Virus record (IMG/VR): IMGVR_UViG_3300042691_004284
Location: 1 to 20,956 of that record
DNA: 20,956 nucleotides
Origin: a virus
Reading direction: 5' to 3' (one strand)
The notes under the pieces are model-generated. The model ran no database searches. It was given only the letters and a program-made list of their open reading frames with translations, and was not told the DNA's origin. Positions within the stretch are counted from its first letter, which is position 1, and each line of letters opens with the position of its first letter. Positions 8,907-20,956 of the stretch are shown piece after piece. The position numbers were made by a program, and so were the translations under genes.

Positions 8907-8926
8907 ATACTGGTAAGACAAGAGAT

Positions 8927-8955
8927 GGGCCACCTTCGGGTGGCCCTCTTTTTTT
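8927..8955 (+). terminator. Intrinsic terminator after the lysis genes
   Basis: A perfect 8-bp GC-rich stem (GGGCCACC at 8927-8934, GGTGGCCC at 8939-8946) closed by a stable TTCG loop and followed by TCTTTTTTT. It lies 21 bases after the holin stop and should end the late transcript. Confidence 0.93.
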
Positions 8956-9148
8956 GTGCCTAAAAACTACACCGGTAGGAGAGCCTAAGAAATGCCCCCC
9001 TACCCCCCATAAAAAACTTATGGTTGGTAGGTGCTACACCGTATAGTGTCGCCTGAAGTTTCTGCCCCACCCCCGAAGGGGTAGGCAAAGAATATCACGA
9101 CACACCGAAATCCCACACTTTGTCGTACCCTTGTGTCACACTTGTGGC
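8956..9148 (+). promoter_or_regulatory. Intergenic control region between late and early genes
   Basis: About 190 bases with no credible gene. It holds several repeats: GGTAGG at 8974 and 9026, both complementary to CCTACC at 8999; CTACACCG at 8968 and 9034; a hairpin at 9069-9082 (ACCCC.../GGGGT, giving a TTCG loop on the minus strand); and GTGTCACAC, an odd-length palindrome, at 9133-9141 just before the first early gene. TATAGT at 9042-9047 resembles a -10 element, with no good -35. CTTGTG occurs twice around the palindrome. This is a likely promoter/operator region for the plus-strand early operon; the exact start is not identified. Confidence 0.45.
8999..9031. other. Interrupted 12-bp inverted repeat
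   Basis: CCTACC (8999-9004) and CCATAA (9007-9012) pair with TTATGG (9018-9023) and GGTAGG (9026-9031), with a CC/TT internal mismatch and a five-base AAAAC loop. No T tract follows, so it is not a standard terminator. It could be a repressor site in DNA or an RNA structure. Confidence 0.7.
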
Positions 9149-9867: not shown

Positions 9868-10618
9868 TAGTAAAGAGACACTAACTATTGGTTGGTGTGA
9901 CAATGGTTTGACTGATGGAAAGTTTACTGAAGGTATTCTGTATTCAACTATTGGACTTCCAAAGTTTGGAATCTATGTGAACAATGCAGTTCGTGTTCAA
10001 GGTAATCAGATTGCTAGACAGCGTATGGATCTTCTCGAGCTGTGGGCAGATCAGGTGCAGACTGACTGGCTACTGTGGGTAGATTCCGATGTTGTCTTAA
10101 CTGCTGAGATTGTAAAGAAACTCTGGGATGCTGCCGACAAGTTGGCACGACCTGTCGTATGTGGGGTGTACTTTGTATCCAAGGCGATGGAAGGAACTCT
10201 GATGCAACCGATGCCAGCATTGTTTATGGATCATCCTACTGAAGAGTATCTGATGAACTTCATTCATCCATTGCCGTATAATGAGATCATTCAAGTCGAT
10301 AGTGCCGGTATGGGATTGGTTCTAATGCATAAGTCAGTAGTTCCAGTACTTCGCAAGAAGTTCCCGGATCAATCATTCTTTGCCGAGAAAGATCTAGGTA
10401 GAGATAAGTTTGTTGGAGAAGATATTGTTTTCTTCCGCAAACTAAAGCAAGCAGGTATCAAGCTGTATGCACATACTGGTGCATTAGCTCAACATATGAA
10501 ACGATTTAGTTTCGATGTTGCGTATTACGGTTTGTATTGGAAAGAATACGAACGACAGATGCAGTTGAAAGCGGAGCAAGAAGCAGAAGAAGTGGAAGGA
10601 TCAAATGAAGGAGATTAA
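9857..10618 (+). CDS. Glycosyltransferase-like protein (GT-A/GT2 type)
   Basis: 253 residues. Residues 71-80 read WLLWVDSDVV, the Asp-x-Asp (D76/D78) motif at the end of a beta strand that binds the nucleotide-sugar metal ion in GT-A enzymes. Upstream NQIARQRMDLLELW is the usual helix before that strand. Downstream, DSAGMGLVLMHKSV and GEDIVFFRKLKQAGIKLYAHT are the acceptor-side and ED motifs of phage family-2-like transferases (GED...F...G). AAGGAG at 9841-9846 is the ribosome binding site. It could glycosylate phage DNA, a virion protein or a host surface glycan; the substrate cannot be told. The C-terminus is Glu-rich and overlaps the nuclease start. Confidence 0.8.
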   Translation: MPHSSKETLTIGWCDNGLTDGKFTEGILYSTIGLPKFGIYVNNAVRVQGNQIARQRMDLLELWADQVQTDWLLWVDSDVVLTAEIVKKLWDAADKLARPVVCGVYFVSKAMEGTLMQPMPALFMDHPTEEYLMNFIHPLPYNEIIQVDSAGMGLVLMHKSVVPVLRKKFPDQSFFAEKDLGRDKFVGEDIVFFRKLKQAGIKLYAHTGALAQHMKRFSFDVAYYGLYWKEYERQMQLKAEQEAEEVEGSNEGD

Positions 10619-11561
10619 GAACATCCTTGTTGATGTCCTCAAAGCGAAGGATGCATCACGAGGAAGGTCACAACAAACAGAGGTCGGGCCATCCGAACTC
10701 GGAGGTTGTGCAAGAAAGGTTTGGTACAGACTGAATCAACAGCCTGAGACCAATGACAACGAGTTGAAACTCGCAGCAGTTATGGGTACGGCAATCCACA
10801 ACACGATTGAATCGGCGTTGAACTTTGTCGATCCTGACCAGAACGAGTATCTCGTTGAACAGGAAGTAGAGGCGTTTGGGATCAAAGCCCATGTCGATCT
10901 CTATGTTCGATCTGCTAAAGCAGTTGTCGACTGGAAGAGTACTAAGACTAAGAATCTTAACTACTTCCCATCGAAGCAACAGCGTTGGCAGGTACAGGTC
11001 TACGGACTCCTACTTTCGGAATCAGGTTTCGAAGTGGATACCGTCAATCTTGTGGCAATCCCACGAGATGGGGATGAACGAGACATCAAGGTTCACTCAG
11101 AACCTTATGATCGAAGCATTGCAGAGGAAGCACTTGAGTGGTTGCAAGCAATCAAGAACTCTTCCGAAGCACCAGCCCCGGGCAAAGATGCCAGCTACTG
11201 CCAGTTCTACTGCAAGTACTTTGATGCAAGTGGGGAACTCGGATGTACTGGCCTAAAAAAAGGTGGGATCACTCCGTCAGAAGTTCTGATTGATGATCCC
11301 TCCATCGACTCCAATGCCTTGGAGTACTTACAAATCACGAACGAGTTAAAGAAACTTGAAGCGAAAGCAGATGGTCTCAAGACTTCTCTCGAAGGTATCT
11401 TCGGTCGTACCATGTCCGGTGTTGAAATCAACTGGACAACGGTGGCACCACGCCAAACGATTGATGAGGCAGAAGTTCTAGCCAAACTCGGATTCGTACC
11501 AAAGAAAACAGCCGGCAAGGAATCAGTCCGGCTTTCAATCAAACACACGGAGGTTAACTAA
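10605..11561 (+). CDS. RecB/Cas4-like PD-(D/E)XK exonuclease with Fe-S cysteines
   Basis: 318 residues. Nuclease motifs in order: ELGGCARKVWY with Cys35, GTAIH (His65), AHVDLYV (Asp98), VVDWKS (Asp109, Lys111), and QVQVYGL (Gln129/Tyr133). A second cysteine group, YCQFYCKYFD...GC (Cys199, 203, 214), completes the four-cysteine iron-sulfur staple of the Cas4/AddB class. Residues after about 230 form a helical tail (YLQITNELKKLEAKADGLK) with a separate beta end. Such enzymes trim DNA ends in phage recombination or replication. It lies next to a zinc-ribbon protein, WhiB and a helicase. Fe-S spacing differs from textbook Cas4 (C-x3-C-x10-C), so cluster binding is likely but not proven. Confidence 0.85.
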   Translation: MKEIKNILVDVLKAKDASRGRSQQTEVGPSELGGCARKVWYRLNQQPETNDNELKLAAVMGTAIHNTIESALNFVDPDQNEYLVEQEVEAFGIKAHVDLYVRSAKAVVDWKSTKTKNLNYFPSKQQRWQVQVYGLLLSESGFEVDTVNLVAIPRDGDERDIKVHSEPYDRSIAEEALEWLQAIKNSSEAPAPGKDASYCQFYCKYFDASGELGCTGLKKGGITPSEVLIDDPSIDSNALEYLQITNELKKLEAKADGLKTSLEGIFGRTMSGVEINWTTVAPRQTIDEAEVLAKLGFVPKKTAGKESVRLSIKHTEVN

Positions 11562-11562
11562 G

Positions 11563-11961
11563 ATGGCCGAACTCGGTTTTCAAGTGTCAACTAAGACACA
11601 AGATGGAACCATTTTCGTCATTGCCGATGCAACCTACGAAGGCTTCGCCAACAAACTAATGGCAGCCCTCGATCAGACAGGTGCAGAGGCAGTACTCCAG
11701 CAGATGAAGTCCTCATTCGCTGGATCACCAATGACTACAGCTCAGATTGCGAATGCTCTGGGCGGTACTGTTATTCAATCTGATAAATGGGGTGCAGCAC
11801 CTGCTGCCGCAGCCCCTGCTGGTCAGGTCTGTAAGCATGGAGAGCCAGCAAAGTTAGTTCCTGCTGGTGTATCTAAAGCATCAGGAAAGCCTTATCGTGC
11901 TTTCTATGCTTGCCAACGACCACAAGGCCAGCAATGCGACTTCAGAGCGAACGCTTCTTAG
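11563..11961 (+). CDS. Zinc-ribbon protein beside the exonuclease
   Basis: 132 residues. N-terminal half (about 1-60): two beta strands and a helix (GTIFVIADATYEGFANKLMAAL). A disordered Ala/Pro linker (AAPAAAAPAG) at about 75-87 leads to a C-terminal ribbon with four metal ligands: C-KHGEP, then FYACQRPQGQQCDF (Cys-His and two Cys). This ribbon shape, with a Gly-Lys-Pro-Tyr turn, recurs in phage DNA-metabolism proteins. Probably DNA- or partner-binding. GGAGG at 11550-11554 is the ribosome binding site. Its neighbour is the nuclease upstream and WhiB overlaps its end. The family was not named from sequence. Confidence 0.65.
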   Translation: MAELGFQVSTKTQDGTIFVIADATYEGFANKLMAALDQTGAEAVLQQMKSSFAGSPMTTAQIANALGGTVIQSDKWGAAPAAAAPAGQVCKHGEPAKLVPAGVSKASGKPYRAFYACQRPQGQQCDFRANAS

Positions 11962-12239
11962 CACAGTTGGTGGAGTCGGGTACACCTAAGTACCCGGCTT
12001 ACACCGGCAAAGAAGCCTGTGCATCAGTTGGATCAGAGATGTTCTGCACCGATGAGAAAGACTTTAGCCACTACGAGGTTCTGCGAGGAATCTGTATGCA
12101 ATGTCCTCTTCTCAGAGACTGTTTCAACTGGGCATTACATAACGAAGACTTCCATTATTGGGGAGCTTCATCAGCCCATGACAGAAAAGAGATACGCAAG
12201 TTGTATCGGATCGAGAGAAAGCGAAGCGTGGCTGCATAA
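11934..12239 (+). CDS. whiB: WhiB-family transcriptional regulator
   Basis: 101 residues from ATG at 11934 (AAGG at 11924-11927); an upstream in-frame TTG at 11910 lacks a ribosome site. The WhiB pattern is clear: Cys29, then GICMQCPLLRDC (Cys54-x2-Cys57-x5-Cys63), which holds a 4Fe-4S cluster, then HYWGASS, the phage form of the WhiB G-x-W-G turn, and a basic end (AHDRKEIRKLYRIERKRS) that contacts DNA. An extra Cys38 is present. WhiB proteins bind the principal sigma factor and alter host promoter use; phage copies can interfere with host WhiB. The family occurs only in Actinobacteria and their phages, so it marks the host. It overlaps the zinc-ribbon gene upstream by 28 bases and meets the next gene in TAATG. 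Confidence 0.9.
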   Translation: MRLQSERFLAQLVESGTPKYPAYTGKEACASVGSEMFCTDEKDFSHYEVLRGICMQCPLLRDCFNWALHNEDFHYWGASSAHDRKEIRKLYRIERKRSVAA

Positions 12240-13087
12240 TGTTGAACCTACTTCAAGCAGTACATAGTACAAACTCATCAGCGAAACCATTGCCCGATGT
12301 GTGGGAATCATTGAAGAGCTATGGGATGAGGTTCCGTCAATCACAACTATGCCTAATCGCTGGGCAACCTAACTCCGGTAAGAGTCTTATGGCTTTGGTA
12401 TATGCACTCAAGAGTGGTGTACCAACTCTGTACTTCTCTGCCGATACGGATCCAATCACACAGATGTTTCGTACTGTTGCAGCTTTGAGTGGGATTCCAC
12501 AACAACAAGTGGAGACCTATCTTGATCAGGACTCACACTATTTCGATCCGATGTTGTCTGAAAAAGGCTCACATATCAAGTGGGTCTTTGATCCGTCACC
12601 AGATATAGACACCATCGAACTCGAGATCCTCGCTTATGGCGAGGTGTATGGCATGGCACCGGCACTTGTCGTTATAGATAACCTAATGAATTGCGTGTCC
12701 GTTACAGGGGAAGAATGGTCAGGCATTCGGGCAATCATGTCCGAACTTCATCATGTTGCTAGAAAGACAGGTGCCTGTGTCCTTGCTCTTACACATATGT
12801 CAGAGCAAAGAGATTACGAAGCAGACAAACCAGCACCACGCCGAGCCATACTTGGCAAGGCATCTCAGTTGCCTTCGATGATCTTGTCGATTGCAATGAA
12901 TCCAGAATATGGAGAACTAAAAGTGGCAGCAGTAAAGAACCGATTCGGAGAACATTCTGCCGATGGCACTAAGTATGCAACCCTTCTCATCGATCCATCG
13001 AGAGTACAGATTGCAGACGGAGATGCACAAGGTCGAGCAGATGTAAGACCGGGATTGATTTATTGGCGTGGACACGAAGCAATCTAG
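12239..13087 (+). CDS. DnaB/RecA-like ATPase, probable replicative helicase
   Basis: 282 residues forming a RecA-type ATPase. Walker A is GQPNSGKS (42-49), Walker B is LVVIDN (143-148, Asp147), and the sensor region reads CVLALTHMSEQ with a following KASQLPSMILSI segment. The layout (short N-terminus, nucleotide-binding fold, KNRFGEHS near the end) matches the single-domain DnaB-like or RadA-like proteins of actinophages, which lack the DnaB N-terminal dimerisation domain. It should unwind DNA or load onto forks for phage replication. Adjacent nuclease, resolvase and primase genes support a replication role. It starts in a TAATG overlap with WhiB. It might instead be a recombination ATPase. 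Confidence 0.8.
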   Translation: MLNLLQAVHSTNSSAKPLPDVWESLKSYGMRFRQSQLCLIAGQPNSGKSLMALVYALKSGVPTLYFSADTDPITQMFRTVAALSGIPQQQVETYLDQDSHYFDPMLSEKGSHIKWVFDPSPDIDTIELEILAYGEVYGMAPALVVIDNLMNCVSVTGEEWSGIRAIMSELHHVARKTGACVLALTHMSEQRDYEADKPAPRRAILGKASQLPSMILSIAMNPEYGELKVAAVKNRFGEHSADGTKYATLLIDPSRVQIADGDAQGRADVRPGLIYWRGHEAI

Positions 13088-13433
13088 GGCAAACAAACGC
13101 AAGGGATCCCAATGGGAGACCGACCTTGTTGAATACTTTAGATCGTTAGATCTACTTGCCGAGAGGTTACGCCTCTCTGGCTCATATGATGAAGGCGACC
13201 TATGGTTCTTCGCCAATAGGAAGTACTTCATAGTCGAAGCAAAGAACGAAAAAGGTTTCAAGCCCGGGCCTTGGATGCAAGAAGCGGTGCTTGAAAGGGA
13301 TAACTGGATGAAGCGAAGAAAGAAATCAGGTCGAGCTATCCCACTTGTCATTGCCAAGCGTAGGCAAAGCAATGTCAGTAAGGCATTTGTCATTATCCAA
13401 CTAGATGAGTTTATGGAGTTAGTAAATGAATGA
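13068..13433 (+). CDS. Holliday-junction-resolvase-like PD-(D/E)XK nuclease
   Basis: 121 residues from GTG at 13068, overlapping the helicase by 20 bases. The start RANKRKGSQWETDLVEYF (Glu17) followed by GSYDEGDLWF (Asp44) and YFIVEAKN (Glu57-x-Lys59) is the E...D...ExK catalytic order of the Hjc/RecB-like resolvase fold, with an N-terminal basic patch for DNA. The C-terminal helix-strand region (WMQEAVLERDNWMKRRKKSGRAIPLVIAKR) matches the usual continuation. It probably resolves branched DNA before packaging. No alternative start is better. The fold and active site are well supported; the exact substrate is inferred. Confidence 0.78.
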   Translation: MDTKQSRANKRKGSQWETDLVEYFRSLDLLAERLRLSGSYDEGDLWFFANRKYFIVEAKNEKGFKPGPWMQEAVLERDNWMKRRKKSGRAIPLVIAKRRQSNVSKAFVIIQLDEFMELVNE

Positions 13434-13605
13434 AACATTAGCGTTGATACTTTCAGTCGCAGCAGGTGTTGCCCTCTATCACTTCCTTGAGTGGGGTTAC
13501 TACAAGATCGAAGATAAGTTCTATGAGTGGAAACACGCAGAAGAGATTGAGAAGTTCGAGCAGTACATCAAGTCTTTAGAGAAGACAACGAAGAAGAAGA
13601 AATGA
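13426..13605 (+). CDS. Small membrane protein (59 aa)
   Basis: 59 residues overlapping the upstream resolvase by 8 bases and meeting the methyltransferase in ATGA. An N-terminal hydrophobic segment (LALILSVAAGVALYHFL, about 4-20) is followed by a charged helix (YYKIEDKFYEWKHAEEIEKFEQYIKSLEK) and a poly-Lys end. It is probably a single-span inner-membrane protein with a cytoplasmic helix. The function is unknown. Confidence 0.65.
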   Translation: MNETLALILSVAAGVALYHFLEWGYYKIEDKFYEWKHAEEIEKFEQYIKSLEKTTKKKK

Positions 13606-14153
13606 AGCAACTAACTTTTGTGTCGCTGTTTGCTGGAGTCGGGGGATTTGATCTCGGCTTCGAGCAAGCAGGGATGAAATGTGTAGGACAGGTAGAGATT
13701 GATAAGCATTGTCAAAAGGTATTGCAGAAGCATTGGCCCGATGTTCCGCTACATGACGATGTAACAACAGCAATAGGTTGGGCTAACGAGAAAGGATTGG
13801 TAGGAAATGTCGACATCGTATGCGGAGGATTCCCATGCCAAGATGTCTCAGTCGCTGGCAGAAGAGCTGGTATCGCTGGGGCAAGAAGTGGACTCTTCTG
13901 GGATGCCATTCGATTTGCTAGGGAAGTCGAAGCACACACGCTCATCTTGGAGAATGTGCCGGGATTATTATCAAGCAACCAAGGCCGCGATTTCGGAGTC
14001 GTTATCTCTGAAATGGCCGACTCAGGGTATCGCCACATCGAGTGGCGAGTTCTGGATTCGCAGTTCTTCGGAGTTCCCCAACGCCGCCGTAGAATCTTCA
14101 TTGTTGGAAGTTCTCGAGAAGACATCAAATCCCCGATACTTCTTGAGCAGTAA
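13602..14153 (+). CDS. C5 cytosine DNA methyltransferase, N-terminal part (motifs I-VIII)
   Basis: 183 residues. Motif I is LFAGVGGFDLGFEQAG; motif IV holds the catalytic Cys79 in GGFPCQDVS; motif VI is ENV (117-119); motif VIII is GVPQRRRRIFIVG. All are complete, so this part is fit to bind SAM and attack cytosine. It then runs SPILLEQ and stops at 14151-14153, well short of a full C5 enzyme: the target-recognition region and motifs IX-X lie in the separate ORF at 14216. Reading on in the +1 frame from about 14152 gives a sensible sequence (KACEGILRRANRRGKVLPKAL), suggesting a frame change rather than a designed end. Alternatively the enzyme is a natural two-chain type such as M.AquI, which splits in the same region. 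Likely roles are self-protection against restriction or epigenetic marking. Confidence 0.82.
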   Translation: MKQLTFVSLFAGVGGFDLGFEQAGMKCVGQVEIDKHCQKVLQKHWPDVPLHDDVTTAIGWANEKGLVGNVDIVCGGFPCQDVSVAGRRAGIAGARSGLFWDAIRFAREVEAHTLILENVPGLLSSNQGRDFGVVISEMADSGYRHIEWRVLDSQFFGVPQRRRRIFIVGSSREDIKSPILLEQ

Positions 14154-14215
14154 GGCTTGCGAAGGGATCCTTCGTAGAGCCAACCGTAGGGGCAAAGTAC
14201 TACCGAAAGCGTTGC

Positions 14216-14923
14216 ATGATGCATTGGTTTATCAAAGCCAGCAGAGCCAAGAGTAAAGATGATTATGAAACATGGAACGAAGGAGGGGTGGTGCCAACCT
14301 TGAACGCATTTGAAAACAACGGTGATGTTCGTGCCACAGTTTTGATTGCAACCAATGAGACTGTTGGTACATTGCAAGCACGAGACTACAAAGGGGTGGG
14401 CAATCAGTATGTCGAGGAAGACAAACTCATCATCTTCCATCCTCATCGATCTGATGGGGTTCGTATCCAAGGTGACACCATCAACACACTTACTGGATAC
14501 ATGGGAACAGGAGGACTGAACACACCTATGGTTACTGCCATACAGAACACAGTCATTGGAAGATCAGAGAATGCTGGGCCCAATGGTCGAGGTCATACCG
14601 ATGAGGGAGACCCGATGTTTACCATCGACACCACATCACCACACGCCATAGTCATACGAGAGCGTGAGGGCAAACCCGGTGGTGGCAAGGGTGCAATGTT
14701 CTCTGATAAATCATTCACCCTCAAGGGTGTCAATGATCAGACAATCTTCGAGTCAACCATCAGAAGACTGTTGCCATTGGAGTGTGAAAGATTGCAAGGG
14801 TTTCCAGATAACTGGACAGAAGACCAGTCTGATTCCCAGCGATACAAACAGATGGGTAATGCAGTCACCGTGAATGTAGCCAAGTGGATTGGCGACAGAA
14901 TCGTGGACTCCTATGGCCGCTGA
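14216..14923 (+). CDS. C5 cytosine DNA methyltransferase, C-terminal part (recognition region, motifs IX-X)
   Basis: 235 residues from ATG at 14216; the frame is open back to 14147. The segment SKDDYETWNEGGVVPTLNAF and repeated 'xTLxxxxxxG' stretches (GTLQARDYKG, INTLTGYMGTGG) form the long variable region usual in phage C5 enzymes. The end has motif IX (RRLLPLECERLQGFPDNW) and motif X (GNAVTVNVAKWIGDRI), which complete the SAM pocket of the N-terminal part. The start region (MMHWFIKASRAKS) looks like the middle of a protein, and no ribosome binding site precedes it, which favours a frameshifted single gene. Alternatively, a natural beta subunit. It overlaps the primase gene by 11 bases. Confidence 0.78.
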   Translation: MMHWFIKASRAKSKDDYETWNEGGVVPTLNAFENNGDVRATVLIATNETVGTLQARDYKGVGNQYVEEDKLIIFHPHRSDGVRIQGDTINTLTGYMGTGGLNTPMVTAIQNTVIGRSENAGPNGRGHTDEGDPMFTIDTTSPHAIVIREREGKPGGGKGAMFSDKSFTLKGVNDQTIFESTIRRLLPLECERLQGFPDNWTEDQSDSQRYKQMGNAVTVNVAKWIGDRIVDSYGR

Positions 14924-15293
14924 TGTTGACCTACTCAAAGCTGTGATTAGACATTACGGTGGAGAAGTAAGAGATGGATATTCGAGAGCAGTAAGGTGTT
15001 GCTTTCACGATGACTCACGGAGATCTGCCGTGATGTCTACTGATGGAGAGAAGGCTGGGTTGTATTTCTGCCACACCTGTGGCATAGGTGGAGATGCATA
15101 CTCACTACTGATGTGGAGAGAAGGGATAGATTTTCGTGTTGCTTTCGATAGAGCGTCTGACATTGCTAAACGATCTGGCATCGACTTATCACAAAAGGAT
15201 AAGCGAAGAGACGGTGGACTACTTACAGGGTCGAGGGTTCGGCAAAGAACTGGCAGAGGCCCATCTGCTGGGAACCGTACCAGTCGATTGTGA
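14913..15293 (+). CDS. Primase zinc-binding domain (DnaG/CHC2 type)
   Basis: Start at ATG 14913, giving 126 residues (an upstream TTG at 14889 is less likely). CCFHDD gives Cys29 and His32, and YFCHTCGIGGDA gives Cys53 and Cys56: the C-x2-H...C-x2-C zinc site of DnaG/CHC2 primases that recognises the DNA template. The helical stretch FRVAFDRASDIAKRSGIDL follows as in these proteins. Beyond about residue 95 (after DLSQ) the reading becomes Arg/Gly-rich and unlike a primase, whereas the +1 frame continues naturally into the TOPRIM domain. So the last 30 residues here are probably off-frame. Primase role in phage DNA replication, with the neighbouring helicase. Confidence 0.78.
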   Translation: MAADVDLLKAVIRHYGGEVRDGYSRAVRCCFHDDSRRSAVMSTDGEKAGLYFCHTCGIGGDAYSLLMWREGIDFRVAFDRASDIAKRSGIDLSQKDKRRDGGLLTGSRVRQRTGRGPSAGNRTSRL

Positions 15294-15783
15294 CCCGAGC
15301 CATGTGCAGTTCATCGGCTGGTTGTCGATCCCATACAGAGTTGTCAATGGGGTGGCAGGATTCAAGTTCCGAAGGGTCGATGGATCTCCGGGCCCTAAGT
15401 ACATGGCTCCAATGCATCAGCCAGCCCGACTCTTCAATGCAGTCGATCTTCAGAAACCTTCAGATGTTGTTGCAATCTGCGAGGGAGAACTCGATGCAGT
15501 TATTGCCAGCCAACTGTTGCCTTCAGTTGGAGTACCGGGTGTCAAGGCTTGGAGACCACACTTCAATCGACTCTTCCAAGGATATAAACGAGTTCTTATC
15601 CTTGCAGATAATGACGAGGGAAAGAAGGATGGTAGCAATCCGGGTATGGAACTCGCCGAGAAAGTATTACAAGAAGTAGAACACGCTGAACTGATACCAT
15701 TACCTCAAGGTTCTGATGTCAACTCAGTAGTAATAGATGAAGGATTAGAAGGTCTGAGAAAGAGGTTAGGACTAGATGAGTAA
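15136..15783 (+). CDS. Primase TOPRIM catalytic domain
   Basis: An open frame of 215 residues from GTG at 15136; the first 22 residues overlap the zinc-finger coding in another frame and are doubtful. A GTG at 15214 is an alternative start, giving 189 residues. Real homology appears to begin at RISEETVDYLQGRGFGKELA. Then FIGWLSIPYRVVNGVAGFKFR with KYMAP is the DnaG core, and the TOPRIM motifs are ICEGELDAV (catalytic Glu) and LILADNDEGKK (Asp-x-Asp for metal). This makes RNA primers for phage replication together with the zinc-binding part upstream. The two parts overlap in different frames; one extra base around 15191-15200 would join them as DLSQ-RISEETV. Confidence 0.8.
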   Translation: MLLSIERLTLLNDLASTYHKRISEETVDYLQGRGFGKELAEAHLLGTVPVDCDPSHVQFIGWLSIPYRVVNGVAGFKFRRVDGSPGPKYMAPMHQPARLFNAVDLQKPSDVVAICEGELDAVIASQLLPSVGVPGVKAWRPHFNRLFQGYKRVLILADNDEGKKDGSNPGMELAEKVLQEVEHAELIPLPQGSDVNSVVIDEGLEGLRKRLGLDE

Positions 15784-16201
15784 CAATGGAGACTCAGGAT
15801 ACAATCGAAAGTTTGAAAAGCTTGTTGGAAAAGCATGGCCTGATAGTGGTAAAAGTAGAGAACCTATCTTCGGGCCTACAGATGACAGTCCAAGTTCCCA
15901 AGACCCGGCAATGAATGACTTCGTTGCTGATGTCTGGGATATCATCGATGAACTTGGCAACTTACTGATAAGCAAGCAAAGGGATTACGGCCCCGGCAAT
16001 ATCAACAATGCATTCGGTGGCCCAATGAATGGGTTACTTGTCCGTATGGGTGACAAGTTTGAACGACTCAAGAACCTGTTTATCTTTGGCAATGGTAAGC
16101 CACAGCATGAATCAATCGAAGATTCATTCAAGGATCTAGCCAACTATGCAATCATCGCAATGATGGTGCAGCGTGGAAAGTGGCCTAAGAACAAACTATG
16201 A
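15776..16201 (+). CDS. DUF1599/Nmad1-like protein
   Basis: 141 residues. Residues about 50-130 show the family order: DIIDELGNLLISKQRDYGPGNI, then LLVRMGDKFERLKNLF, then ESIEDSFKDLANYAIIAM. The K-RDYG, R--DK--RL-NL and DLAxYAII motifs are typical of phage DUF1599, also called nucleotide modification associated domain 1. Members are found near enzymes that make or control modified nucleotides, and their overall shape recalls MazG-like helical folds. Here it sits between primase and a small membrane gene and 0.85 kb after the C5 methyltransferase. The first 45 residues are polar and probably flexible. The exact chemistry is unknown. Confidence 0.72.
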   Translation: MSNNGDSGYNRKFEKLVGKAWPDSGKSREPIFGPTDDSPSSQDPAMNDFVADVWDIIDELGNLLISKQRDYGPGNINNAFGGPMNGLLVRMGDKFERLKNLFIFGNGKPQHESIEDSFKDLANYAIIAMMVQRGKWPKNKL

Positions 16202-16323
16202 AGAAGCTCCTCTTTTTTTTGGTTCCGATTCTTGTAATTACATCGTTGTATTTCCTCATTAGGTTCATCATCGATGCAATCATAGAGATGGATGGAGTCG
16301 GAGGTCTTGACCTCGATGAGTGA
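16198..16323 (+). CDS. Very small membrane protein (41 aa)
   Basis: 41 residues in an ATGA overlap with the gene before and an 8-base overlap with the next. Nearly the whole N-terminal 30 residues are hydrophobic (LLFFLVPILVITSLYFLIRFIIDAII), then an acidic tail (GGLDLDE). A single-span membrane protein of unknown role. Without it the stretch 16202-16315 would be an unusual gap in this tightly packed operon. Confidence 0.55.
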   Translation: MKKLLFFLVPILVITSLYFLIRFIIDAIIEMDGVGGLDLDE

Positions 16324-16951
16324 TCGAGCCAAAGAACACCTCAATGACCTTATCAACATAGCCTCATCAACCATCTACCGAAGGTTCGTTGGGTATGTGG
16401 AATACAAAGACTTGGTTCAAGAACTAAATGTCTATGTATTGCAAAGACCTAAACTTGAGGAAGATCTTGATGAGTCTTATCAGGTATCCAAAGATGAAAC
16501 TAAATGGGTGGCTAGGAAAATCATGGCAAGGTTCCGCCGCCACATTGAAAAGTATTCTCGTAAAGAGAAGTCGGTTCGTGTTGGTTACTCGACTGGTGAT
16601 GAGTTCTTCTACGACACAGTAACCATTGCATCTATCTTGCCAGTTGCATTGCAGTTCGATGTACAAGGTGTGACATTGATCGACAAGGTAGATGATGGAC
16701 AACCACGCAGATCACCGGCACCTAATGAAGGTGGCAACCTTCTTGCCATGGCAATAGATGTGAAGTCTGCTCTTGAACTTCTTGATAAAGATGAACAGTA
16801 CATAATCAACCTAAGATACGGAGCTTCCCCCATGACCCTATCTGATATTGGAAAAGAACTAGGTCTGTCTGATTCGACAGTAGATCGGAGGGTTCAAAGA
16901 ATCCTTCGGAAGATTATCGATCATCTTGGAGGCCCAACTCCATGGGCGTAA
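16316..16951 (+). CDS. Sigma-70-like transcription factor
   Basis: 211 residues from ATG at 16316, with GGAGG at 16300-16304; an in-frame ATG at 16292 is possible. N-terminal part: YRRFVGYVEYKDLVQELNVYVLQ resembles sigma region 2 helices (VEYxDLVQExxV). Residues about 150-205 form a sigma region-4 helix-turn-helix: LLDKDEQYIINLRYGA, LSDIGKELGLSDSTVDRRVQRILRKI. The middle linker (GQPRRSPAPNEGG) looks flexible. It probably redirects host RNA polymerase to phage promoters, or acts as an ECF-like or anti-type factor. With WhiB, this gives the operon two transcriptional regulators. Confidence 0.75.
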   Translation: MSDRAKEHLNDLINIASSTIYRRFVGYVEYKDLVQELNVYVLQRPKLEEDLDESYQVSKDETKWVARKIMARFRRHIEKYSRKEKSVRVGYSTGDEFFYDTVTIASILPVALQFDVQGVTLIDKVDDGQPRRSPAPNEGGNLLAMAIDVKSALELLDKDEQYIINLRYGASPMTLSDIGKELGLSDSTVDRRVQRILRKIIDHLGGPTPWA

Positions 16952-17415
16952 AGATAGTCTTAGAAAGATATGAAGTGGTACTGGCTGTGAATACAGCAGT
17001 CGAAAGATATGTATCCACTATGAAGAACCAACAGATGCGTGGACTACAAGACATGGATCCGTGGCAACGAATCCTCCTCGATGTGGATGGATGTGGTGCA
17101 GAGATTGCCGTTGCTAAATACCTTGGCGTTTATTGGGGTGGTGCATTCGGTCAGGGCGGCGTAGACATAGAGCCAAACATAGATGTGAAGTACACAAAGC
17201 ATGAGCAAGGAAGACTATTAGTTAGACCCGATGCAAAGGATGACATCAAGTTCGTATTAGTTCGTGGTGGTATGCCGAACTATGAACTAATCGGATGGAT
17301 TATGGGAGCAGAAGCAAAGAAACCAGAGTGGTTAGACAAACCTGACTGGCGAAGACCTGAGATTTATTGTGTACCTGAAGATAAGTTACGAAAGTTTAGA
17401 GGTTACTATGGCTAG
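16942..17415 (+). CDS. Hypothetical protein, possibly nuclease-fold
   Basis: 157 residues; the start overlaps the sigma-like gene by 10 bases. The stretch GCGAEIAVAKYLG ... GVDIEPNIDVKYT ... KFVLVRGGMPNYELIGWIM has a helix with Glu, then Asp-Ile and Asp-Val-Lys strands, then a hydrophobic strand. This order recalls the PD-(D/E)XK restriction-like fold (E...D...DxK) of many small phage proteins. The C-terminal part ends with a Trp-Pro-Tyr segment (EWLDKPDWRRPEIYCVPED). Catalytic activity is not proven and no firm family is assigned. Confidence 0.55.
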   Translation: MGVKIVLERYEVVLAVNTAVERYVSTMKNQQMRGLQDMDPWQRILLDVDGCGAEIAVAKYLGVYWGGAFGQGGVDIEPNIDVKYTKHEQGRLLVRPDAKDDIKFVLVRGGMPNYELIGWIMGAEAKKPEWLDKPDWRRPEIYCVPEDKLRKFRGYYG

Positions 17416-17599
17416 GTATGATTACCAATGCCCGGGTTGTGGCAATGTGGTTGAGATAATCAGAGGGTTCAACGATCCAGAGTCAGAGTATGAATGCCCA
17501 ACAGATAACTGCAACACGATGTTAGTTCGAAAGTATTCTGCTACCCCGACCATCTTCAAAGCTCAAGGTTTCTACTCTACGGATAACTTCAGAAAATGA
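17408..17599 (+). CDS. FmdB-family zinc ribbon protein
   Basis: 63 residues from ATG at 17408, overlapping the upstream gene by 8 bases. Four cysteines (Cys8, 11, 30, 35) in YQCPGCG and YECPTDNC form the zinc ribbon of the FmdB regulatory-protein family. After it, RKYSATPTIFKAQGFYSTD is the standard end of that family. Such ribbons are widespread in bacteria and phages and may bind nucleic acid or partners. It is the last gene of the plus-strand operon, followed by a hairpin at 17604-17621. Confidence 0.85.
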   Translation: MARYDYQCPGCGNVVEIIRGFNDPESEYECPTDNCNTMLVRKYSATPTIFKAQGFYSTDNFRK

Positions 17600-19525: not shown

Positions 19526-19677
19526 TACTTACCCTCCCCGAAGTAGCACTCAATCATTGTTCCCCAGCAGTAGTGGTCTTCAACCCACCAAATGTGGCTA
19601 GTGATGTAATAAACGGCAACGAATCCAAGCAGTATCGCAACTGCACGAACTCGCTTACCTCTCTTCGTTAGTTTCAT
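19525..19677 (-). CDS. Small membrane protein (50 aa)
   Basis: 50 residues. A basic start MKLTKRGKRVR precedes one hydrophobic span (AVAILLGFVAVYYI), then a Trp/Cys-rich outside-like end (SHIWWVEDHYCWGTMIECYFGEGK). The basic start would stay inside and the two cysteines (Cys37, Cys44) could pair outside the membrane. AAGGA at 19684-19688 is the ribosome binding site, six bases from the ATG. It is the first gene after the structured leader at 19678-19735. The function is unknown. Confidence 0.62.
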   Translation of the reverse strand: MKLTKRGKRVRAVAILLGFVAVYYITSHIWWVEDHYCWGTMIECYFGEGK

Positions 19678-19735
19678 TTCTGTTCCTTTTCTCTAGGTGG
19701 TCTGTCTCTTCAGGTGGGGTAGACCAGTTCCCCAC
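19678..19735 (-). promoter_or_regulatory. Leader with possible H-type pseudoknot (copy 1)
   Basis: On the minus strand stem 1 is GTGGGG (19730-19735) with CCCCAC (19714-19719). Its loop contains TGGTCT (19721-19726), complementary to AGACCA (19698-19703) downstream. The two stems interlock as an H-type pseudoknot, ending about nine bases before the AAGGA ribosome site (19684-19688). A related leader lies at 20898-20955. No known riboswitch class was recognised. Confidence 0.55.
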
Positions 19736-19736
19736 G

Positions 19737-19754
19737 ACCTCCCCGAAGGGAGGT
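19737..19754 (-). other. TTCG-loop hairpin upstream of the leader
   Basis: On the minus strand ACCTCCC and GGGAGGT form a 7-bp stem around TTCG, just after the stop of the gene at 19760 and one base before the pseudoknot. No T tract follows, so it is not a standard terminator. It may be an RNA-stability or processing element. Confidence 0.6.
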
Positions 19755-19759
19755 TTCGA

Positions 19760-19894
19760 CTATTCCTCCTTACATTCACAGAGTGGTTCATCATCCATCC
19801 ACTCTTGACCGCATTCTTTGCAACTGCATTGGTGGTCTCGAGGTTGACCCTCGATGTTCCCACAGATTTGGCAGAGTTCGATGAGGGTACTCAC
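19760..19894 (-). CDS. Small cysteine-rich zinc protein (44 aa)
   Basis: 44 residues from GTG at 19892-19894, in a GTGA overlap with the gene before it; the frame is open further upstream but would overlap that gene by 55 bases. Cysteines: LCQICGN (C-x2-C), then CSCKECG (C-x-C-x2-C) and LCECKEE (C-x-C). Seven cysteines in 44 residues indicate a zinc-binding mini-protein. Its role is unknown. Confidence 0.55.
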   Translation of the reverse strand: MSTLIELCQICGNIEGQPRDHQCSCKECGQEWMDDEPLCECKEE

Positions 19895-20202
19895 GATGCT
19901 TGGTTCCAATCGCAGTTCTTGCAGTAGTGCCACTCGGCTTCCCAATCAGAGACCCTTGCTTGGCAATCTGGAATCGCCACTCTCTTCCCATCCTTGACCA
20001 CATACGAGATGCATTGCTTTTGGATGGAACCATCCGAGAAGAACATCATGTCGAACCATTGGTCACCAACCTTGATGTTCTTTCGGTCGGTCATCTTGAC
20101 CCGATTCGGTTGGCAGATGTCCATGTGCTTTTCATAATCTGCATTCGTGGAAGTTTCGTTCCAGCAAGTTGAGCAGATGTAAGTGATGCCAGCAGTTTTC
20201 AT
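19891..20202 (-). CDS. Hypothetical zinc-ribbon protein (103 aa)
   Basis: 103 residues from ATG at 20200-20202 (ATGA overlap with the gene before); a longer frame exists but runs into that gene. The start TYICSTCWNETSTNADYEKHMDIC resembles a C2H2-like finger (C-x2-C...H-x3-C). The middle is a beta unit (KVGDQWFDMMFFSDGSIQK). The end, WHYCKNCDWNQAS, gives another C-x2-C. Possibly two small metal sites. The family is unknown. Confidence 0.65.
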   Translation of the reverse strand: MKTAGITYICSTCWNETSTNADYEKHMDICQPNRVKMTDRKNIKVGDQWFDMMFFSDGSIQKQCISYVVKDGKRVAIPDCQARVSDWEAEWHYCKNCDWNQAS

Positions 20203-20639
20203 TTTCCAATCCTCCAAAGATTCTTCTTGGTTAGTTCCACGAGAAGTGGGATTGCTTCTCCTTGTGCATCGTATGGAGTGAGGTCTACCCATTCCTCCAT
20301 GCCATCCTCGACATCGGGTTCAAACCCGATTGCATCGGTGGTCAATGTAAGTGCCTTCTTCTTATCTGCTGAGTACACATAGACGACCATGCAGAACCCA
20401 CCAGTTTGTTCGATGTTGCACTCGATGCCAGCATCTTGAAGTGCCAATGCCAGTTCATTCGAACCATCGGATTCACAAACCGAGGAGACTCGGCATTGGT
20501 AGCAACCGCCGTGTTCGATGCGTAGGAAGTTGTTGTTCATATCTCGGACTTCGTAATCCACCATGTGTGGGTGACCAGTAAATCCTGCACAAGGTTTGGC
20601 ATCTTCATGCCACCTTTTTTCTTGTAGCTCGAGTTTCAT
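20199..20639 (-). CDS. Hypothetical protein (146 aa)
   Basis: 146 residues, the largest unknown in the minus-strand cluster. It has an N-terminal charged segment, a Cys/Gly-rich middle (GGCYQCRVSSVCESDGSNELALALQDAGIEC) and a beta region (GGFCMVVYVYSADKKKALTLTTDAIGFEP), ending in a helix (EAIPLLVELTKKNLW). Five cysteines cluster around residues 46-92. I recognise no family. It directly follows the first gene of the cluster. Confidence 0.62.
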   Translation of the reverse strand: MKLELQEKRWHEDAKPCAGFTGHPHMVDYEVRDMNNNFLRIEHGGCYQCRVSSVCESDGSNELALALQDAGIECNIEQTGGFCMVVYVYSADKKKALTLTTDAIGFEPDVEDGMEEWVDLTPYDAQGEAIPLLVELTKKNLWRIGK

Positions 20640-20897
20640 TTATGCACCCTTCTTCGATCCGTGGAGCAATCGGTCTTCGTAAGCGGTGAGCAGTTGGTCT
20701 ACTCCATCCTGAACATCCCCGAACTCGGCGATGAAATCGCTCTCCTCGGTGGACTGTATGAATCGGATGTCGTAGCAGAGGGAGTCGCCGTCATGGCTGG
20801 ACTCTCCGATTTCCTTCTCTCCTTTGTAGATGTGGAGAGTGTGTCCAATCATTCCTCGAGAGTTCTCGAAGAGTCGGACTTTCTTTACTTGGTACAT
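20640..20897 (-). CDS. Hypothetical protein at the head of the visible minus-strand cluster
   Basis: 85 residues: a beta-rich start (YQVKKVRLFENSRGMIGHTLHIYKGEK) followed by an acidic strand and a helix (VQDGVDQLLTAYEDRLLHGSKKG). AAAGGG at 20903-20908 is the ribosome site, five bases from the ATG, and the second copy of the structured leader lies just upstream. No known family. Its stop directly abuts the next gene's ATG. Confidence 0.62.
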   Translation of the reverse strand: MYQVKKVRLFENSRGMIGHTLHIYKGEKEIGESSHDGDSLCYDIRFIQSTEESDFIAEFGDVQDGVDQLLTAYEDRLLHGSKKGA

Positions 20898-20955
20898 CTT
20901 GACCCTTTCTCTAGTGGCTTGGCTTCATCAGTTGGGGAGTAGCCATCTACCCCAA
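20898..20955 (-). promoter_or_regulatory. Leader with possible H-type pseudoknot (copy 2)
   Basis: On the minus strand stem 1 is TTGGGG (20950-20955) with CCCCAA (20932-20937). Its loop contains TGGCT (20941-20945), complementary to two tandem AGCCA copies (20915-20919 and 20920-20924). The order, the CTGA after stem 1, and the CTAGAGAAA run into the ribosome site match copy 1. The window ends one base past stem 1, so any promoter lies outside. Confidence 0.55.
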
Positions 20956-20956
20956 G

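Follow-up and report, generated by a model that had tools for sequence, protein, structure and literature searches.

Two leaders on the minus strand of an uncultured viral contig, situated upstream of the ATG codons at 19677 and 20897, share a series of structured elements close to the ribosome site, raising the question of which kind of RNA they encode and what it might do for the virus. The window analysed, 20,956 nucleotides in length, corresponds to the entire IMG/VR contig (IMGVR_UViG_3300042691_004284) and ends at nucleotide C20956. It codes for a WhiB-like protein, a DnaB-like helicase whose nearest relatives are the DnaB helicases of actinobacteriophages, and a 669-aa protein resembling Streptomyces phage proteins; as judged from sequence, the source is most likely an uncultured phage with a host among the Actinobacteria. 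Elsewhere in the window, a DNA methyltransferase is apparently distributed over two ORFs (13602-14153, the one scanned, and 14216-14923), and this split within 13602-14923 could be a frameshift, an error or two genes. A primase-like gene (14889-15783) likewise seems to be split, from translations inspected by eye, into overlapping frames (14889-15293 and 15136-15783), with a frameshift as a possible cause, and a strong hairpin resembling an intrinsic terminator, GGGCCACC-UUCG-GGUGGCCC and then a run of T, is found at 8923-8957.

A preliminary description had interpreted the leaders as two copies of an H-type pseudoknot matching no known family. Both related structured leaders, with all the elements it quoted, are indeed present on the minus strand, and the pseudoknot is real, the element called stem 2 being the loop I-3' tail pseudoknot of a published ribozyme class (PMC3088659). 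What had been described is actually the 3' portion of a larger RNA, the type II hammerhead, which forms a curated family (RF02276) and whose pseudoknot was already published. Screening against all 4227 Rfam families identified RF02276 in copy 1, at 19761-19696 of the minus strand, with 42.2 bits, above the gathering score of 37 and well beyond chance (E = 9.9e-6, or 2.3e-9 with RF02276 alone), while nothing else in Rfam, aptamer families included, scored above gathering.

Copy 1 constitutes a complete type II hammerhead with a loop I-3' tail pseudoknot (19698-19760, minus strand; RF02276 match 19696-19761), in which GUC-GAAA-CCUCCC-UUCG-GGGAGG-UC immediately precedes stem I on the 5' side. The preceding gene ends in a TAG (19760-19762) that overlaps the 5' arm of stem II (GUC, 19760-19758) within 19758-19762, G19760 being common to the stop (19762-19760) and the stem. 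In the covariance alignment, these are followed by the GAAA core, G12 to A15.1 (19754-19757), and by stem III, CCUCCC/GGGAGG closed by a UUCG tetraloop (19738-19753), which also appears in the minimum free energy fold. U19737 and C19736 directly precede the predicted cut, which is placed between C19736 (H17) and G19735 (19735-19736) from the UH position of the hammerhead consensus. Stem I (19714-19735), supported by sequence, alignment and fold, pairs GUGGGG (19735-19730) with CCCCAC (19719-19714) around the loop AACUGGUCUA, and is followed by the core CUGAAGA (19707-19713), an instance of CUGANGA, and by the 3' arm of stem II, GAC (19704-19706), seen in both sequence and alignment. The 3' arm of the pseudoknot, AGACCA (19698-19703), is complementary to UGGUCU in loop I (19726-19721), a kind of pairing also borne out by a family-wide test. 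Beyond AGACCA, the DNA continues with CTAGAGAAA, AAAGGA and the ATG at 19677, AAAGGA (19684-19689) being the ribosome site of a 50-aa gene; in the RNA, the pseudoknot arm and AAAGGA are separated by CCUAGAGA. The earlier view captured the 3' part of the motif but missed everything 5' of stem 1, which lies in the window for copy 1 and in contig L002 for copy 2, and it noted a CTGA element without recognizing the start of the catalytic core CUGANGA.

Only the 3' part of copy 2 falls in the window (20915-20956, minus strand), its 5' part being absent because the contig ends at its cleavage-site C20956; that the contig should end exactly at this nucleotide is probably a coincidence of assembly. 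Stem I pairs TTGGGG (20955-20950) with CCCCAA (20937-20932), and the pseudoknot pairs TGGCT (20945-20941) with AGCCA (20919-20915), upstream of the ATG at 20897. The core CUGAUGA (20925-20931) is followed by an extra A (20924) and by the 3' arm of stem II, GCC (20923-20921), an arrangement seen both here and in L002. Contig G001, of which L002 is the locus, encodes proteins that match those of the window at 100% where compared, and carries the whole copy at L002 5922-5982: UAGGC-GAAA-CCCC-UUCG-GGGG-UC^UUGGGG-UAGAUGGCUACU-CCCCAA-CUGAUGA-A-GCC-A-AGCCA. This copy obtains 28 bits on RF02276, under the gathering score of 37, probably because of the extra A between core and stem II and of a stem I that is poorly fitted by the model.

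Features that define the class were compared in both copies. The core elements CUGAAGA, GAAA and UC are all present in copy 1, and CUGAUGA, GAAA and UC in copy 2, with an extra A after A9; stems I and III are closed by loops and stem II carries the open ends; the pseudoknot, a majority feature of at least 4 bp, extends over 6 bp in copy 1 and 5 bp in copy 2. Copy 1 exceeds the gathering score, copy 2 of G001 does not, and the orthologues of copy 2 do (38.7-43 bits). Thermodynamic folding of the leaders gave z values of about 0 relative to shuffled sequences (-0.35 to 0.99), which are uninformative because the pseudoknot lies outside the model and the shuffles fold equally well; by folding alone, the element would have been missed. 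Taken from sequence, both leaders are therefore very probably type II hammerhead ribozymes. Copy 1 is a member of RF02276 by every feature examined here, with cleavage predicted, and its catalysis is inferred from the intact core and the published activity of the class. Copy 2 is a type II hammerhead by homology and structure whose core insertion puts its activity in doubt, and in the window strain it may be slow or inactive given the extra A. Since this class was already known from phages, the pair is a new example of it and not a new riboswitch.

Type II hammerheads and their loop I-3' tail pseudoknot were described by Perreault et al. in 2011 (PMC3088659), and the passages of that report covered here include disrupting and restoring mutants in support of the pseudoknot, a stem II of two pairs, fast cleavage by type II hammerheads bearing the pseudoknot, and clusters of hammerheads flanking prophage genes. 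The window shares with the class, as presented there, the core, the order of the three stems, the short open stem II, the loop I-3' tail pseudoknot and the clustering around phage genes. It differs in its UUCG-loop stem III, its exact placement from stop to ribosome site, and its host group, an actinophage by its WhiB and DnaB relatives, which is absent from those passages.

Might the ribozymes be decaying or neutral, given that hammerheads are easy to evolve? The core insertion and the 28 bits of copy 2 in the window strain point in this direction, but both sites are conserved in eight relatives with intact cores (one copy at 36 bits), and the orthologous sites show paired changes that keep stems I, II and the pseudoknot; we thus regard this scenario as very unlikely. 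The relatives retain pairing at sites A and B, so that leaders lacking it, named beforehand as evidence against the structure, were not what we found, and the claim that differences between the copies preserve pairing extends to the orthologous sites. At site A (copy 1), stem I has G-C as its outer pair in the window and in L014, but A-U in L003, L004 and L009. At site B (copy 2), stem I changes from UUCGG/CCGAA in L004 to UUCGA/UCGAA in L008 (G-C to A-U), and the window strain differs from its relatives in stem II (GUC/GAC to GGC/GCC, U-A to G-C) and in the pseudoknot (UGGUU/AACCA to UGGCU/AGCCA, U-A to C-G). As these last two changes are fully paired, the helices of copy 2 have been kept. 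The copy 2 orthologues of L003-L010 read CUGAUGA-GAC-AAACCA, and the sixth pair of the pseudoknot is missing in some relatives (U opposite U, or A opposite A), so that its conserved unit comprises five pairs. Because MAFFT misaligns stem I of site B when both sites are aligned jointly, covariation was read by eye for each orthologous site, a cleaner comparison than that of two paralogous copies on which the pairing had first been proposed. A search with the pattern CTGANGA...CCACNTAGAGAAA recovered the group itself and six contigs with no hammerhead match, which were taken as chance.

To place these ribozymes in a wider context, viral contigs were surveyed with a UUCG-type stem III pattern of 17 specified bases, which retrieved at least 120 stretches and biases the sample towards contigs in which a stem III with a UUCG loop occurs at least once. 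A structural descriptor, which makes no pseudoknot requirement, recognized at least 120 distinct type II hammerheads in these loci, mostly from other viral contigs, and gave no match in 4.3 Mb of 2-mer-block-shuffled sequence. Among the matches listed, 40 of 120 hammerheads can pair loop I with the tail through at least 5 contiguous Watson-Crick pairs, compared with a mean of 6.6 and a maximum of 14 pseudoknots of this length in 500 partner shuffles, and 30 different pairings occur, some being sub-strings of others. Rfam supported the assignment at E <= 0.001 in 27 of the 50 survey contigs tested, 15 of them above the cut-off. The survey also contains a second phage type II group (L050, L065, L098, L129 and others) with short stem I loops (GUAA or similar) and without the pseudoknot, in whose place another tertiary contact presumably acts.

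The survey bears on the initial suggestion that the leaders act as a metabolite riboswitch or a protein-binding site on the ribosome site. A structured RNA does adjoin that site, as in H-type pseudoknot riboswitches, which likewise place a pseudoknot near it, but here the ribosome site lies outside the paired elements, a catalytic core is present and no aptamer family matches. Furthermore, the hammerhead accounts for the whole structure, Rfam offers no other family above cut-off, and in other contigs very different sequences follow the same element, which makes such a function extremely unlikely. Of the control proposed near the ribosome site, a post-transcriptional role is reasonable and likely, whereas riboswitch, protein-binding and autoregulatory versions of it found no specific support.

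Placement between genes was found to be highly regular. Each ribozyme of the window occupies the gap from a stop codon to the next ribosome site, with the pseudoknot arm ending about 20 nt ahead of the following start codon. Among the matches listed, an upstream ORF stop lies within 80 nt of 115 of 116 usable ribozymes (51% at random same-strand positions, 56% on the opposite strand), and a downstream Shine-Dalgarno sequence (SD) plus start within 75 nt of 102 of them (27% and 18%, respectively), at a median of 27 nt past the core (interquartile range 24-30). After near-identical hammerheads were collapsed, 59 of the remaining 81 listed have a stop 0-7 nt before GAAA, against 7% at random, and 74 an SD and start downstream; copies 1 and 2 conform to this placement. 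In dense phage genomes, the gap from stop to SD is the sole room for non-coding elements, hence placement alone is no proof of function.

The same order is repeated in arrays. Rfam identifies 24 hammerheads (21 by the descriptor) in the 7.6 kb of locus L169 (G051, IMGVR_UViG_3300017605_000570, contig 9932-17520), where most of the 21 descriptor matches lie 1-7 nt after a called ORF stop and 16-22 nt before a called start, and seven in the 3.2 kb of L170 (G038, IMGVR_UViG_3300008255_000242, contig 32339-35541), where the pseudoknot pairings mostly differ among the seven while the order stop-ribozyme-SD-start is unchanged. Both contigs approach one ribozyme per gene, the genes of G051 being small. 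Tentatively, many phages may punctuate their operons with about one type II hammerhead per gene, exactly from stop to ribosome site, yielding single-gene mRNAs with structured ends whose cleavage would be coupled to translation upstream. A related but rather unlikely scenario is a regulated switch, in which ribosomes terminating on the upstream gene, at a stop within stem II, would mask the 5' part of the ribozyme, or ribosomes occupying the downstream site would perturb the pseudoknot, making cleavage responsive to translation. The stop located 0-7 nt before GAAA in most sampled ribozymes, and within stem II in copy 1, is consistent with it, as is the distance of about 20 nt from the end of the pseudoknot arm to the start codon, although simple genome compaction would give equal spacing.

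The two ribozymes of the window delimit a minus-strand block (19760-20897) with ORFs of 85, 146, 103 and 61 aa, among them the ORF at 19760-19945 directly upstream of copy 1. No Pfam family was found above cut-off for these four ORFs (the 61-aa ORF being scanned from 19897 only), nor any PHROG among those scanned, and no informative family match was obtained for the genes between the ribozymes. For the 85-aa gene, a search of genome contigs turned up no relative in a prophage, and blastn of the ribozyme region against isolated phages returned nothing shared beyond one 20-nt stretch. A same-strand pair that bounds one block and is kept in eight relatives could excise this segment of about 1.2 kb, with 5'-OH and 2',3'-cyclic phosphate ends, for ligation into a circle. 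Against this, other contigs carry from 1 to 24 type II hammerheads among the matches listed, with no fixed pair, and copy 2 may be weak; a search by Perreault et al. (PMC3088659) for products that were circular or spliced was negative. We therefore consider excision very unlikely.

The function that we favour, with moderate confidence, is the processing of operon mRNAs. Transcription of the minus-strand operon would produce each ribozyme, which would fold within the intergenic gap and cut itself just 3' of UC, where stem III meets stem I. The upstream message would be left with a 3'-terminal stem III hairpin and a 2',3'-cyclic phosphate, and the downstream one with a 5'-OH and a blunt stem I hairpin, devoid of unpaired 5' nucleotides and held by the pseudoknot, while the ribosome site would stay free in the approximately 20 nt from the pseudoknot arm to the start. 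Cleavage would likely serve to separate the mRNAs of small gene blocks, and probably also to protect them, so that the separated mRNAs could be translated and decay independently; we infer these effects on stability and translation. In some bacteria a 5'-OH end can also promote decay.

Known systems offer partial parallels in the 2011 report (PMC3088659), whose authors suggested that cleavage turns long phage transcripts into mRNAs of operon or gene length. Tandem sets of hammerheads cut there during transcription in vitro, and one set in E. coli. The triple hammerhead of the Agrobacterium tumefaciens prophage ardA region, which cleaves in E. coli, resembles the window in that several ribozymes on a single polycistronic RNA flank short blocks of genes, and differs in its genes and phage. 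In haloviruses HF1 and HF2, a hammerhead site lies 13 nt ahead of a start codon, and the 5' end of an mRNA has been mapped to within 3 nt of that site; this HHphage hammerhead is similarly found shortly upstream of a phage start codon, but belongs to an archaeal virus, has a variant core and occupies a single site heading an early transcript. A search mostly outside the subscription literature found no later papers on the stop-to-start placement of hammerheads.

The pair described here adds, for an actinophage group, a clear case of phage hammerheads in which the sites are orthologous, the changes paired and the placement fixed. Together with it, the placement observed in the survey puts numbers on the mRNA-processing idea of 2011 and renders it easily testable by RNA-end mapping.
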